Source of the DNA: a virus
Reading direction: 5' to 3' (one strand)
IMG/VR virus record: IMGVR_UViG_3300030090_000189
Span: 1-20,426 of that record
DNA length: 20,426 nt
Shown: piece after piece, positions 2,719 to 17,053 of the stretch
Layout of the letters: each line of letters opens with the position of its first letter
Numbering within the stretch: the stretch's first letter is position 1
Position numbers and translations under genes: made by a program
Notes under the pieces: generated by a model
What the model saw: the letters and a program-made list of their open reading frames with translations, nothing else
Told to the model about the DNA's origin: nothing
The model's database searches: none

Positions 2719-3363
2719 TTATTCTACCTCTTTTTCTTCTTTTGAGATTTTTTTCTTTAATTTTTTAAATATTGTAGAAATAATTTTTTTTATTAAAGGA
2801 GCCAAAAGCGCAGAGCCACCAGCAACCACACCGATAATAGTAGTAGAAATGAGTGTTTCAGGCGTACCAATAAAAGTCTCTCGGAACGGTACTTTTTCCC
2901 AATTTTCGACACACTCAATTACTCCATTTATTTCCATTTTGGAATAATAGTCAAACCTAAACAGCCTTTTATCATTTTTGTAATCACCTTTCATAAATTG
3001 AGGATTTAAAGGTGGGCAAGGTTCATAAAGGTCTTCTTCTTTTTTCTTTCTTGCAACTTTTTGTTCTTCCGATTTTATTTCTGGTTCTTGTTCCGCTCTG
3101 TTAGTTAAAGATGAGTATGTTGGGTTGAAGTACATTGGCGTGTAATCTAGTGGCTCAAAGCTCGGCACTTGTAAACCGCACTCAATAACTGTGCCATTTT
3201 CATCAATATCAATCTGTGTTGCTAAATTATTTCTATGAACTTTTATACAAGCTGGATAATCAACAATTAATTTTGGAACTTTTTTTATTTTTGGAATTAA
3301 TGGCTCATAAACGTGAATTTTAGGAACATTTAATTCATTTATTTGTATCTCCTTAATTTCCAT
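2719..3363 (-). CDS. Membrane-anchored hypothetical protein with proline-rich N-terminus, 214 aa
   Basis: The first hundred residues are rich in proline, valine and isoleucine (EPLIPKIKKVPKLIVDYP). They include a DYPACIKVHR motif and an ECGLQVPSFEPLDYTP segment that I recall from cyanophage proteins annotated only as hypothetical. A charged linker follows, then VIECVENWEKVPFRETF. One hydrophobic segment, about residues 172-192 (TTIIGVVAGGSALLAPLI), precedes a strongly basic and then acidic tail (KKLKKKISKEEKEVE). This looks like a C-terminally anchored membrane protein with conserved cysteines in the soluble part. The start overlaps the end of the upstream small membrane protein by 11 bases, so the two are probably co-translated. 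Function unknown. Confidence 0.65.
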   Translation of the reverse strand: MEIKEIQINELNVPKIHVYEPLIPKIKKVPKLIVDYPACIKVHRNNLATQIDIDENGTVIECGLQVPSFEPLDYTPMYFNPTYSSLTNRAEQEPEIKSEEQKVARKKKEEDLYEPCPPLNPQFMKGDYKNDKRLFRFDYYSKMEINGVIECVENWEKVPFRETFIGTPETLISTTIIGVVAGGSALLAPLIKKIISTIFKKLKKKISKEEKEVE

Positions 3364-3574
3364 TAAAAGGAATAGATATGCCTGTTGATTTTGGAAGTTG
3401 TTTATCTAAAACTTTGCCCATAGATCCACTGACTTCAGAAAGTATCTGATTCATAACTTGGCTTTTAAATTGTTCAGAAGTAACAAATCTGTAAGTTACA
3501 AATGCCCCTGCACTCATGGAAGCTACCATAAGAAAAGAGACAATACTTAAAACATTAGCAATTTTTTGAAACAT
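3353..3574 (-). CDS. Small single-span membrane protein, 73 aa
   Basis: A hydrophobic segment at about residues 5-28 (IANVLSIVSFLMVASMSAGAF) is followed by a soluble part, KSQVMNQILSEVSGSMGKVL, and a Gly/Pro-containing end (PKSTGISIPFNGN). The layout of one N-terminal helix, an amphipathic stretch and a short tail recalls small cyanophage proteins that accompany the proline-rich gene downstream. The ATG at 3574 has GGAGG about 15 bases upstream, a rather long spacing, and a promoter-like TATAAT further up. It could be a membrane partner of the 2719-3363 product. Function unknown. Confidence 0.6.
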   Translation of the reverse strand: MFQKIANVLSIVSFLMVASMSAGAFVTYRFVTSEQFKSQVMNQILSEVSGSMGKVLDKQLPKSTGISIPFNGN

Positions 3575-3707
3575 GGTTAAAGATGCTATCCTCCGAGCAA
3601 TAAGTCATGGCCTCATTATATCAATGTTGATATTAATACCAACTATTGCTCCTTTATATTTAATAACAGGGCTAGTGACAAAACAAATGACAACGAAAAC
3701 TAACTAA
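3573..3707 (+). CDS. Possible small membrane protein, 44 aa
   Basis: An ATG frame of 44 codons lies in the otherwise empty gap between two minus-strand genes. Its product begins MVKDAILRAISHGLIISM and continues LILIPTIAPLYLITGLVTKQ: a charged start, one or two hydrophobic segments and a basic polar tail, as in small phage membrane proteins. There is no clear ribosome-binding site. The ATG overlaps the start codon of the divergent gene by two bases, and the stop overlaps the zinc-finger frame by eight bases. The competing explanation is that the region is the promoter and leader of the 3353-3574 gene and that the open frame is chance. I rate the two about equal. Confidence 0.4.
   Translation: MVKDAILRAISHGLIISMLILIPTIAPLYLITGLVTKQMTTKTN
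3615..3642 (-). promoter_or_regulatory. Putative promoter for the 3574-2719 gene pair
   Basis: Reading the minus strand, TTGGTA (3642-3637) is followed after 16 bases by a perfect TATAAT (3620-3615). Transcription would start near 3608 and give a leader of about 35 bases that includes GGAGG before the ATG at 3574. The -35 matches four of six positions. It would let the pair 3353-3574 and 2719-3363 be expressed separately from the long structural operon. Confidence 0.35.
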
Positions 3708-3840
3708 AAATTCTTTTTCTGTGAAATCTTGCTTTACAAGTTAAAGAACAATATTTCTTTCTTTGTTCCATTGTGAAGAAAATTTTGTTGCAATATCGAC
3801 AATTTTTTTCTATACCTTTGCTGTTAGCGTTTCTAATTGC
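3700..3840 (-). CDS. Zinc-finger frame in -1 register, probably expressed by frameshift
   Basis: In the -1 frame relative to the coiled-coil gene, the sequence after the slippery site reads AIRNANSKGIEKN, then CRYCNKIFFTMEQRKKYCSL and TCKARFHRKRIFS, then stop. Cys-x2-Cys, thirteen residues, Cys-x3-Cys followed by a basic RFHRKR end is a compact treble-clef or FCS-like zinc-binding pattern. The frame has no ATG, GTG or TTG before the first Cys pair: upstream it runs only to a TGA at 3855-3853, and the sole ATG lies after the first CxxC. So it should be made as a 98-residue fusion by -1 shifting at 3846-3840. A rare ATT or ATA start, or a one-base sequencing error in the seven-A run, would also explain it. 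A nucleic-acid-binding role is inferred. Confidence 0.55.
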   Translation of the reverse strand, partial: AIRNANSKGIEKNCRYCNKIFFTMEQRKKYCSLTCKARFHRKRIFS

Positions 3841-3995
3841 TTTTTTTCTGCGTCAGCCTCGGCTCGATCTTTTAAAATTGCATCAATAGCTATAGCTCTT
3901 GTTTCACAATTTTTTATAACTTGTTGTGCTTGTAAGTGATTTTTTTCTAAATCTTTTAATTCCTGTTGTAGTTCCTCTGTTGTTTTTCTTGCCAT
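3810..3995 (-). CDS. Small coiled-coil protein, 61 aa (zero-frame product)
   Basis: The chain MARKTTEELQQELKDLEKNH, continuing to LKDRAEADAEKKQLETLTAKV, is almost entirely charged and helical, with heptad spacing typical of a short coiled coil and a central cysteine. It begins immediately after the stop of the S74-containing fibre upstream (adjacent, no gap), so it is the last gene of the fibre block. I recall small helical proteins with the same MARKTTEEL-like start among marine cyanophages, with no assigned role. Ten codons before its stop it contains the slippery sequence A AAA AAG; a -1 shift there would replace the last ten residues with a 46-residue zinc-finger extension. Confidence 0.65.
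   Translation of the reverse strand: MARKTTEELQQELKDLEKNHLQAQQVIKNCETRAIAIDAILKDRAEADAEKKQLETLTAKV
3840..3860 (-). promoter_or_regulatory. Putative -1 programmed frameshift site (SD-like plus A AAA AAG)
   Basis: On the minus strand, GAGG (3860-3857) lies exactly 10 bases upstream of the heptamer A AAA AAG (3846-3840), which sits in the correct phase of the coiled-coil gene (codons GAA AAA AAG). The E. coli dnaX frameshift signal has the same heptamer and an SD-like element 10 bases upstream. I see no strong downstream stem-loop; only weak AT-rich pairing is possible. Confidence 0.5.
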
Positions 3996-5345
3996 TTAAG
4001 ATACTTTAGATTCTAATGTTTCTACTTTAGCGGATAATTCTTGAACTGACTTTATAAGCACTGAAATAAGCTGAGTGTAATCAATCGCCATAGGTCTATC
4101 ATTACCAGCATAAGTTTTATCTTCTGGTTTTACAGCAATACTAATATCATCTAGTGTTTTTCCTAATCCAGTTATTACATCTTCAACATCTTGTGCAATA
4201 AGACCATAATGAGTTTTTGCATCTAGTTTTAGTTCTTCTACATTTTGATTAAATTTAAAGGAGACAGGCTTTAATTTATTTATAAAATCAAGTCCTAAAT
4301 CACTGTCGGTTATAGTATTTTTAATACTACGATCAGATGTTGCATTAAAAAACGGAGCATTGCAACCATTTGAAAAACTAAACTGAGAACCACCAGTAAT
4401 ACGACCACCAGTTAGATCACCTGTGTCACCATCTGACGTATGAAAGTCAATATACAAACCAGCTTCCATAACACCATCCGTTTGAATATGAGCAACAACG
4501 CCAAAACAATTTCCAGAAGTAGCAAGAACCAAATTACTCAAAGCACTTGCGTTAACCGCTGTACCACTACTTGTTGTAAGTAAATTTGTAGGAACATTTG
4601 TAAGGCTGGTATAACTGATACTTATATTTGCTGAACCATCAAAACTTGTACCAGCAATAGTTCTGGCAGTTGCTAGTTTTGTAGCAGTTGCAGCGTTACC
4701 AGTAATATCAGACGATATTGAACTAGGTAATCTTGCATCTGATATTGTACCACTGTTTAAATTGCTAGCATTTCCAGCAGTAAAACCACCAGATGTTCCT
4801 GATATATTGCTGCTACTTGTGATAAAACTAGAATTATTTGTTAATTGACTTGTAAGTGTTGGAATTGTTGGAGTGTTAGAAAAATTATTGTAATTAAGAT
4901 AATAAGAACCCTGTTGTCCGTCTAATAAATCTGAATCTAAACCTGATCCAGAACCGTCATTACTTGTATCAAAAAATCCAAGACCCCTAATATCAGAAGC
5001 AGTTTGGTCTGCGGTTGCTCCATCCTCTACGTTTATCATTGTCCGTAGATTAGCTGGTGTTATTTCTTCTATTATTCCCGCACCAGAAGAGTCTCTTCCT
5101 AAGATTCTGTCTGTTGCTGATACGTTTTGCATTTTGGCATAAGTCACAGCATCATCAGCTAACTTGGCAGTTGTTATATCTCCATCACCTACACCGCTGC
5201 TACTACCCCCTCCAATTTCTTTTATTGAACCGCTATCATTAACATAAAATTTCTGGGCAGAAGTATCTATTGCAACTTCGCCATTTGCTATATCACTTGT
5301 TGTTGGTGTGCTTGTTCCCCTTTTTAACTTAATGACATTTGCCAT
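3996..5345 (-). CDS. Tail fibre protein with C-terminal Peptidase_S74 chaperone domain, 449 aa
   Basis: AGGAGGT precedes the ATG at a normal spacing. The N-terminus MANVIKLKRGTSTPTTSDIA, followed by ANGEVAIDTSAQKFYVND, is a recurrent start of cyanophage and marine phage fibre proteins. Residues 60-300 are Ser/Thr/Asn/Gly-rich with repeated LxSQL, TGNA and SGT stretches, as in trimeric beta-helical shafts. From residue 337 comes the S74 intramolecular chaperone: SDRSIKNTI (Ser337 and Lys342 as the expected dyad), then GLIAQDVEDVI and AIDYTQLISVLIKSVQEL, ending in a short coiled coil. Members of this family trimerise the fibre and then cut themselves off just before the serine. The role is receptor binding or side-fibre function, with the ligand unknown. 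Confidence 0.85.
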   Translation of the reverse strand: MANVIKLKRGTSTPTTSDIANGEVAIDTSAQKFYVNDSGSIKEIGGGSSSGVGDGDITTAKLADDAVTYAKMQNVSATDRILGRDSSGAGIIEEITPANLRTMINVEDGATADQTASDIRGLGFFDTSNDGSGSGLDSDLLDGQQGSYYLNYNNFSNTPTIPTLTSQLTNNSSFITSSSNISGTSGGFTAGNASNLNSGTISDARLPSSISSDITGNAATATKLATARTIAGTSFDGSANISISYTSLTNVPTNLLTTSSGTAVNASALSNLVLATSGNCFGVVAHIQTDGVMEAGLYIDFHTSDGDTGDLTGGRITGGSQFSFSNGCNAPFFNATSDRSIKNTITDSDLGLDFINKLKPVSFKFNQNVEELKLDAKTHYGLIAQDVEDVITGLGKTLDDISIAVKPEDKTYAGNDRPMAIDYTQLISVLIKSVQELSAKVETLESKVS

Positions 5346-7799: not shown

Positions 7800-8980
7800 T
7801 AGCTTGCCTCAAGTGCAGCAACTTTAGTTTCTAATGTTTCTATCTTAGCAACCGCTTCTTGAAGTGCTTTTGTTAATGTAGACAACATTGGTAGATAATC
7901 AATACTCTGAATTTCTTTGTCTTTTTGTTGTTTTACAGCATCAGGTATTACTTCTTGTACCTCATGGGCTATAAAGCCTTCATGTAAAGCCTCAGTTTGT
8001 TCAAATATTTCAAAAGCTTTATCTTGATATTTTACTGGCCTTAATTTTTTTAATCTTTCTATTCCATTTATATCAAGATTTTCAATATTTCTTTTTTTAC
8101 GATAATCAGAAGTTCCTAATTGAAAATAACCTAATCGTGTATTATCAATAAAAAAGTAAGCAACACCTCCCGAGCTATCCCACCAAATATTAAATAAGTT
8201 TGCAGTTGATGTACTGGCAGCATTATTGTTTCCAGAGTCTGTAGATAGACCAGTTCTTGTGCCAAATCCTTTTGCAGCGATAGTGCCTGCAACAGCACTC
8301 GCGCCAGACAAGTCGTTACCTACTGCCTGAAAAGCACCCCCAGACAATAGTTGGAACCGTTCTGTGTTTGTTGTTTTAAAACGTAAACTTCCCGCATCTT
8401 GTACAACTAAATCTAATGAACCTGTCCCCCTGTGTACTATTTCTGAGATTCCGTTTGCTGTTTGTGTTCTTCTAACTCTTAAACCGTAATCTGTATAAGT
8501 TGTATCTGCTACTAAATCTATGATTGCATCTTGATCGTTAACACCAGTAGAAATTGTTAATTGGGAATCTGCACCAGACCTCTGGATAAATAAATCACCA
8601 GCTAAATCTACTTGATTTGCTTTGAATTCGGTAAGCAATGAACCATTTACAGAAACCCCTATTTGATTTGATGCACTTCTATAAAATCCAGTACTTGGAC
8701 TATTTGTAAAAGTATAGCTAGGGGTTCCAGCGCTGCCATCTGGCCCATAAAAGTTACCATCTGCCAAACTTATAAATTCATGCCTACCTCCTGACGTAGG
8801 GTTCTTATAAAAACCCATTCTGCCAGATACAGTATTTGCATACCACATATATGCAACTAAAGTACTCGGTACACTTCCATAACCATGATTTTGTACTATA
8901 GATTCAAAGACATCATTCAAATCACTTCTAACATTAGCTCCAGAGGCGTTTGCTATTGAAAAATCTGCTGGTTTCGCCAT
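7799..8980 (-). CDS. Tail fibre or spike with C-terminal Peptidase_S74 domain, 393 aa
   Basis: The N-terminus MAKPADFSIANASGANVRSD, followed by LNDVFESIVQNHG, is a capsule of the type that starts many marine phage fibre proteins. The middle has GPDGSAGTPSYTFTNSPSTG, GFYRSASNQIGVSVNGS and repeated beta strands. The last 103 residues are an S74 intramolecular chaperone: SDYRKKRNIENL (Ser291, with the expected lysine at 295 or 296), then RLKKLRPVKYQ, GFIAHEVQEVIPDAV and IDYLPMLSTLTKAL, and a final coiled coil. It should trimerise and self-cleave. The last 30 residues resemble those of the 3996-5345 fibre (VETLESKVS against IETLETKVAALEAS). It is the first fibre after J in the operon. Confidence 0.85.
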   Translation of the reverse strand: MAKPADFSIANASGANVRSDLNDVFESIVQNHGYGSVPSTLVAYMWYANTVSGRMGFYKNPTSGGRHEFISLADGNFYGPDGSAGTPSYTFTNSPSTGFYRSASNQIGVSVNGSLLTEFKANQVDLAGDLFIQRSGADSQLTISTGVNDQDAIIDLVADTTYTDYGLRVRRTQTANGISEIVHRGTGSLDLVVQDAGSLRFKTTNTERFQLLSGGAFQAVGNDLSGASAVAGTIAAKGFGTRTGLSTDSGNNNAASTSTANLFNIWWDSSGGVAYFFIDNTRLGYFQLGTSDYRKKRNIENLDINGIERLKKLRPVKYQDKAFEIFEQTEALHEGFIAHEVQEVIPDAVKQQKDKEIQSIDYLPMLSTLTKALQEAVAKIETLETKVAALEAS

Positions 8981-16526: not shown

Positions 16527-17053
16527 TTACCCTCTATTTGCTCTTTGGCGATTTAATTGTCTTTTTTCTCTTTCATTCTTTAATTCATAATAACCAGCCC
16601 AATATATTAGTTCTTCTTCTGTAATCAAAGAACGTAATTCTTGGATAGTTTTTCCTAATTCTGTCGCGAGAAAAAATTCAAAATTAAACCAATTATCTCG
16701 CGATATTATTTTTTTGCTTTATCAATATCTAATTTTATATCAAACATAAAAAGCTCTATTTCATTAAGAACATTTTCGGGAAGTTCTCTTTGTAGGTTTG
16801 GCGCATCTGCGGGGTTAAATGCTGGTGTTCCATCTTCTTTCTCTGCATTTTTACAAAGAAGATAAGTTGATATTGTCAATGCTTCGTCTGTGCCTGCGGC
16901 GGCCTGTGCGCGAACACGATCATCTCTTGTTAATGGCTTAAAGTATAAGTTAGCTATAACAACGCCATTAGCGTCTTTAAATTCATATTTACGTCTAGCT
17001 GTCATCTGATCTTTATAAGATTCAGTTAACAGGTCAATTGTTCTTTTTTGCAT
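16527..17053 (-). CDS. Tail assembly chaperone G-T fusion, made by -1 frameshift, 175 aa
   Basis: The zero-frame gene (16706-17053, 115 aa) opens MQKRTIDLLTESYKDQMTAR and ends DIDKAKK. The -1 frame continues from the A-run: IISRDNWFNFEFFLATELGK, TIQELRSLITEEELIYWAGY, YELKNEREKRQLNRQRANRG, stop at 16527. The extension has the gpT look, with TIxELRS and EEELxYWxxYY, as in many siphophages. The G form and the rarer G-T form together chaperone the tape measure during tail assembly. The position between tail tube and tape measure is the expected one, and no other start for the extension is needed. Upstream of the ATG no strong ribosome-binding site is visible. Confidence 0.85.
16706..17053 (-). 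CDS. Tail assembly chaperone G, zero-frame product, 115 aa
   Basis: The unshifted product of the same gene ends directly after the slippery run (GCA AAA AAA TAA). In lambda-like tails G is made in large excess over G-T. It is acidic and helical with a conserved-looking core, LYFKPLTRDDRVRAQAAA and NEIELFMFDIKLDIDKAKK. Confidence 0.8.
   Translation of the reverse strand: MQKRTIDLLTESYKDQMTARRKYEFKDANGVVIANLYFKPLTRDDRVRAQAAAGTDEALTISTYLLCKNAEKEDGTPAFNPADAPNLQRELPENVLNEIELFMFDIKLDIDKAKK
16709..16715 (-). promoter_or_regulatory. Programmed -1 frameshift site of the G/G-T gene
   Basis: The heptamer A AAA AAA (seven A on the minus strand) lies in the phase GCA AAA AAA and is followed at once by the zero-frame stop TAA. 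A -1 slip joins the two frames with the gpT-like sequence continuing in register. Programmed shifting at this position is a conserved property of dsDNA phage tail genes. No SD-like element or clear stem-loop is seen beside it. Confidence 0.8.

Follow-up and report, generated by a model that had tools for sequence, protein, structure and literature searches.

A putative programmed -1 frameshift that would join a zinc finger to a coiled-coil protein beside the tail-fibre genes of uncultured ocean phages

The locus at positions 3700–3995 of a linear IMG/VR virus record (IMGVR_UViG_3300030090_000189, positions 1 to 20,426; this whole stretch of 20,426 nucleotides is referred to as the window) is most probably a single gene whose decoding involves programmed -1 ribosomal frameshifting, a reading to which we assign a probability of about 0.87 from sequence comparison. 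We favour it because the frameshift signal is conserved among relatives, both reading frames are under selection, start codons are absent from the second frame, and the slippery heptamer is absent where the zinc finger is absent. According to the proposed mechanism, most ribosomes would translate the coiled coil as far as the TAG at 3812–3810, while some would slip back one base at A_AAA_AAG, aided by pairing of a GAGG ten bases upstream with the 16S anti-Shine-Dalgarno sequence and by a single tRNA-Lys(UUU). The slipped ribosomes would read on in the -1 frame, which has no start codon, and so append a zinc finger to the coil. We infer that the slippage is ribosomal rather than transcriptional, and the same status applies to the host, the efficiency of shifting and the function of the products. 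The gene family appears to be one of uncultured ocean phages related to Prochlorococcus viruses, and its finger is missed altogether by ordinary gene calling because it has no start codon.

Gene arrangement and signals in the window

The features of the locus and its immediate neighbours are as follows.

3996–5345, minus strand: 449-aa tail-fibre-like protein, upstream neighbour (from the ORF list; a DNA match to Cyanophage P-SSP2 lies inside it)
3810–3995, minus strand: zero-frame coiled-coil ORF of 61 aa plus stop (phrog_20003 family; dN/dS 0.19; helix predicted by AF2)
3857–3860, minus strand: GAGG, a Shine-Dalgarno-like putative stimulator exactly 10 nt upstream of the heptamer
3840–3846, minus strand: slippery heptamer A_AAA_AAG, in phase and conserved in relatives
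3810–3812, minus strand: zero-frame TAG stop for non-shifting ribosomes (from ORF reading)
3700–3846, minus strand: ORF in the -1 frame, running from heptamer to stop, predicted to encode a treble-clef-like zinc finger with a basic C-terminal helix (dN/dS 0.073; AF2)
3573–3707, plus strand: 44-aa transmembrane-like ORF, convergent with the finger and sharing 8 nt with its 3' end (unlisted ORF)
3353–3574, minus strand: 73-aa membrane-like protein, downstream neighbour (profile match to phrog_568, 'plasmid stability')

The coil ORF follows directly on the tail-fibre-like gene (5345–3996, minus strand), whose product has a C-terminal region that presumably resembles an S74-type intramolecular chaperone domain. 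The 61-aa zero-frame product is MARKTTEELQQELKDLEKNHLQAQQVIKNCETRAIAIDAILKDRAEADAEKKQLETLTAKV. The heptamer lies at CDS offset 149 in the right X_XXY_YYZ phase, with coil codons 51–52 within GCA GAA AAA AAG; it uses six of the seven A in the run at 3847–3841, and the G, and is followed by 9 sense codons before the TAG. Downstream of it the -1 frame reads AIRNANSKGIEKNCRYCNKIFFTMEQRKKYCSLTCKARFHRKRIFS, extending for 46 codons beyond the heptamer to a stop at 3702–3700, and contains the finger motif C-x2-C-x13-C-x3-C (CRYC-x13-CSLTC, then RFHRKR). From the preceding -1-frame stop to the first Cys this frame holds no ATG, GTG or TTG. A -1 shift would join coil and finger in a predicted 98-aa fusion. 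A sequence-only reading of this DNA had pointed to the in-phase A AAA AAG near the coil stop, to the GAGG ten bases upstream of it and to a -1-frame Cys finger with a RFHRKR end and no start codon, all of which the reading frames bear out; the 61-residue coil and 98-residue coil/finger forms that it envisaged are supported by the comparison below, in which frames and signal are conserved.

Further features of the window lie outside this gene. The phrog_568 protein is kept beside the coil site in MED4-184 and MED4-117, and its 'plasmid stability' label looks doubtful. On the plus strand, ORFs 1633–2052 and 1881–2666 overlap by 172 bases in different frames; the latter contains a signal-peptide-like stretch, so its true start is perhaps further downstream, or other unusual decoding may be involved. 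A 29-base near-repeat (90%) at 7821–7849 (minus strand) is common to the ends of two tail-fibre genes and codes for a C-terminal coiled-coil end.

Conservation and coding selection among relatives

Patterns taken from the coil alone (MARKT.. and A[IV]L[KA]DRAE) recovered 62 IMG/VR loci. Every locus among these with a complete finger (about 50 without the window) has the heptamer in phase and a start-less finger in the -1 frame. Since the arrangement is kept in all complete finger-bearing relatives found through coil-only patterns, it goes beyond chance. One more (L017) has the heptamer, its finger being cut by the contig end. Both finger and heptamer are missing from eleven coil loci of the same search (L027–L031, L040–L044, L067), whose coils end in ..AEKESQFETCTPKLEKALESTSI or a close variant; at a further locus, L069, the coil is disrupted and tells nothing for this count. 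The cultured cyanophages P-SSP2, P-SSP3, P-RSP2, P-GSP1, MED4-117 and MED4-184 also have the coil, with no heptamer there and no finger. At one fingerless locus (L028:6001–6700) a gene for a secreted, outer-membrane-like protein stands in the finger's place.

Adding a finger-based search gave 69 distinct coil-to-finger sequences. This larger set was picked by heptamer presence, and only the coil-pattern set is unbiased in that respect; its members are also related, so that codon tests overstate their independence and p-values are only indicative, although synonymous sites have otherwise diverged well. The frame relation is the same throughout, across more than 35 metagenomes. The heptamer is AAAAAAG in 66 sequences and AAAAAAA in 3. 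It occurs at offset 116, 149, 158 or 191 and always in phase, moving with the frame as the spacing changes (in L045, L046 and L054 it is shifted by nine bases, phase kept), and the zero-frame tail beyond it amounts to 0, 3, 4, 6 or 9 sense codons. GAGG stands at exactly -14 in 56/69 and not there in 13/69; the Glu codon at -14 is GAG in 58 cases and GAA in 6, whereas the other Glu codons of these coils are GAG 51 times and GAA 477 times, and none of the 56 sequences has a start codon 4–13 nt downstream of the GAGG. For the second Lys of the heptamer AAG is used 66 times and AAA 3 times, compared to 40 and 183 elsewhere in the same ORFs, although the G also begins the next -1-frame codon and its conservation may partly be coding. 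A stop directly before the heptamer closes the -1 frame in 12/69, and entry must therefore occur at or after the heptamer. No ATG, GTG or TTG precedes the finger in any of the 69. The sequence-only reading had suggested aligning homologues from related phages; the alignment finds both frames, the heptamer and the GAGG conserved in divergent contigs.

Selection on the two frames was assessed from Nei-Gojobori counts for pairs at 3–25% divergence. The finger in the -1 frame has a dN/dS of 0.073 and the coil in frame 0 one of 0.19, with synonymous divergence (pS) of 0.52 and 0.43 respectively, and third positions account for 67% of differences in the finger frame and 52% in the coil frame. Finger-frame stops occur inside the finger in none of the sequences, compared to 315 stops in another frame. 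These counts indicate strong purifying selection on the finger frame; the low dN/dS, the third-position bias and the stop-free frame imply that the finger is translated and that its sequence matters.

Finger domain and alternative explanations

Coil and finger were modelled separately with AF2, the coil from an alignment of IMG/VR loci only. The coil is predicted to form a single long helix (residues 6–60, pLDDT 93) and matches phrog_20003 by profile over residues 1–52 (E=7.4e-13). The finger model has strands at 12–15 and 22–25 and a basic helix at 35–47 (pLDDT 81), the right order of elements for a treble clef. Foldseek gives it weak matches (E 0.41 or worse) that agree in kind: a DUF1470 protein, which we take to be of CGNR type, YacG bound to gyrase, and an FCS finger. 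Among curated families none scored over its cut-off for the finger (PLATZ 20.7 vs 25, zf-FCS 15.5 vs 22.4), the YacG profile matched only weakly (11/42), and a profile search of solved structures returned only short zinc-knuckle overlaps. The nearest phage families of the finger include HNH endonucleases with such fingers (phrog_1271). The 98-aa fusion had no match in the annotated phage collection, and no finger relatives were found in 84,980 cellular genomes. We suggest that the finger may bind nucleic acid or a host protein.

A finger-only search identified eleven loci whose finger starts at an ATG of its own (L079, L080, L082, L083, L089, L104, L144, L147, L148, L150, L154). Most of those with long enough flanks have it at the same site, after the tail-fibre module and against a convergent small membrane gene, with other genes occupying the coil's position; the stand-alone finger of L148 lies elsewhere, after the 210-aa gene. 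Small antisense ORFs like that at 3573–3707 adjoin the stand-alone fingers of L080, L089, L104, L144 and L154. At one locus, L090/L188, coil and finger share a single frame via a deletion in the coil, and L090:1771–1998 retains the heptamer, now in the finger frame. The L090 contig shares its sample of origin with L101 but differs from it downstream; its one-frame fusion may be natural, or a chimaera. The sequence-only reading had held that a finger with its own ATG, or a homologue in one frame, would tell against frameshifting. Both exist (the eleven loci and L090), yet the frameshift reading stands, as separate and fused fingers show the finger to be a real, separable domain and leave the frameshift unrefuted. 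From the comparison of loci, the finger appears as a separable domain joined to the coil by predicted -1 frameshifting, and the start-less, heptamer-linked finger as the form that occurs with the coil.

The own-ATG homologues at the same kind of genomic site might instead suggest that the finger is a separate protein here too, begun at an internal ATA, ATT or ATC or by reinitiation past the zero-frame stop, and an ATA does precede the Cys pair in 58/69. However, the three usual start codons are lacking in all 69, the near-cognate codons lie at varying places with no evident Shine-Dalgarno sequence at a suitable distance, and no reason would remain for conservation of the in-phase heptamer, the GAGG and the AAG codon, so that we regard separate translation as highly improbable. 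In transcriptional slippage, RNA polymerase would add or drop A residues in the run and part of the mRNA would encode a one-frame fusion. The run is A7 in the window, 8 A in L001 and L003, and reaches about 9 or 10 in L038, L045 and L054, and slippage is known at long A runs (PMC3711429). Against this, AAG is kept in 66/69, which shortens the run, a GAGG at constant distance would not be expected to play a part in transcription, and an equal A7 run in the coil (3946–3940) is linked to no conserved alternative frame. Transcriptional slippage is thus an unlikely general explanation, though it may play a part at those few loci whose run reaches 8 to 10 A.

The homopolymer at the site, together with the one-frame coil and finger of L090, could also be read as the trace of a gene once in one frame in which an A was gained or lost, through sequencing or assembly error or through decay. 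A homopolymer sequencing error was the main alternative named by the sequence-only reading, and is excluded by the family-wide conservation and by selection on the finger. An error or decay would have to produce one and the same relation between the frames in each of 69 distinct sequences, drawn from over 35 metagenomes, and to spare a finger with a dN/dS of 0.073, and the single frame of L090 arises from a deletion further upstream and not at the A run; we give this account next to no weight.

Function, novelty and known systems

Conserved 3' stem-loops or pseudoknots were not detected (alignment z about -1.4 to -1.8 compared to column shuffles, window z -0.15), and the stimulator set therefore comprises the heptamer and the Shine-Dalgarno-like element only. 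A CUAUU/AAUAG 3' stem, apparent in some loci, is broken in others and was rejected. A_AAA_AAG is the dnaX site, and in E. coli it provokes shifting far more readily than related heptamers do; in about half of bacteria, including E. coli, both Lys codons are read by one tRNA-Lys (PMC5009743). Among the 38 tRNA genes in the draft genome of Prochlorococcus MIT 9201 there is a single tRNA-Lys, with anticodon UUU, and no CUU tRNA. The closest matches of the window J protein are in the Prochlorococcus siphophages MED4-117 and MED4-184, at 33% identity, so the host is presumed.

The coil would form an oligomer tied to the tail-fibre module, and a finger on a minority of chains would give mixed oligomers, with nucleic acid or a host protein as their ligand. 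We put this forward as a tentative proposal for the function as a whole, with somewhat less than an even chance. Nearly identical modules are found on two different coil types in L001 and L003, and L146/L208 carries the module on a coil only distantly alike. Slippery site and finger might then travel together as a portable unit, recombining at the tail-fibre region's end and joining any upstream coil by frameshift. A fixed minority of coil oligomers would thereby bear a finger whose target is nucleic acid, of host or phage, or a host protein, for example gyrase; we consider this extended scheme doubtful.

Programmed -1 frameshifting and its signals are already known. Our literature search found no paper on frameshifting in the coil/finger gene, which does not prove that none exists and agrees with the sequence-only reading, to which no frameshift gene beside phage tail fibres was known as described. 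No zinc finger is mentioned in the main texts of the genome-wide frameshift surveys GeneTack (PMC3711429) and PRFect (PMC10885494). If the reading is true, phage recoding gains a widely conserved gene that is not a chaperone, in marine viruses that probably infect some of the most abundant photosynthetic cells, and the fingerless, stand-alone, in-frame and frameshifted versions form a natural series for asking why a two-product ratio is preferred.

Among known proteins, the FCS/MYM, YacG and CGNR treble-clef fingers and the phrog_1271 HNH fingers share with the window finger the C-x2-C ... YCS-x2-C pattern and, as predicted for the latter, a short hairpin and a basic C-terminal helix, although the profile and fold matches are only weak (best Foldseek E 0.41). 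The phrog_20003 coils of the cultured cyanophages listed above are homologous to the window coil and differ in lacking heptamer and finger; MED4-117 and MED4-184 have the same downstream membrane gene.

Long-tailed phages likewise use a -1 slip late in a small gene, that of the tail assembly chaperone G/GT, by which part of the product gains a C-terminal domain, and the window has an apparent second -1 frameshift site at such a gene:

16706–17053, minus strand: presumed tail-assembly-chaperone G ORF (17053–16706), with a T-like extension in the -1 frame to 16527
16709–16715, minus strand: A_AAA_AAA at the presumed G/GT junction, near the end of the G ORF

The coil gene was rejected as a G/GT candidate itself, as it lies after the tail-fibre genes and not between tail tube and tape measure. 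The proteins are unrelated and encoded at opposite ends of the tail module, and the coil frameshift, unlike that of G/GT, is not required by relatives, among which fingerless coils exist. The likeness to E. coli dnaX (tau/gamma) drawn in the sequence-only reading holds for A_AAA_AAG and for the Shine-Dalgarno-like element ten nt upstream, to which the single tRNA-Lys(UUU) of the presumed host can be added; it does not extend to the 3' hairpin that helps in dnaX, as no conserved 3' structure was found for the coil gene. The outcome would also differ, in that the dnaX shift truncates its protein whereas that of the coil gene would add a domain.
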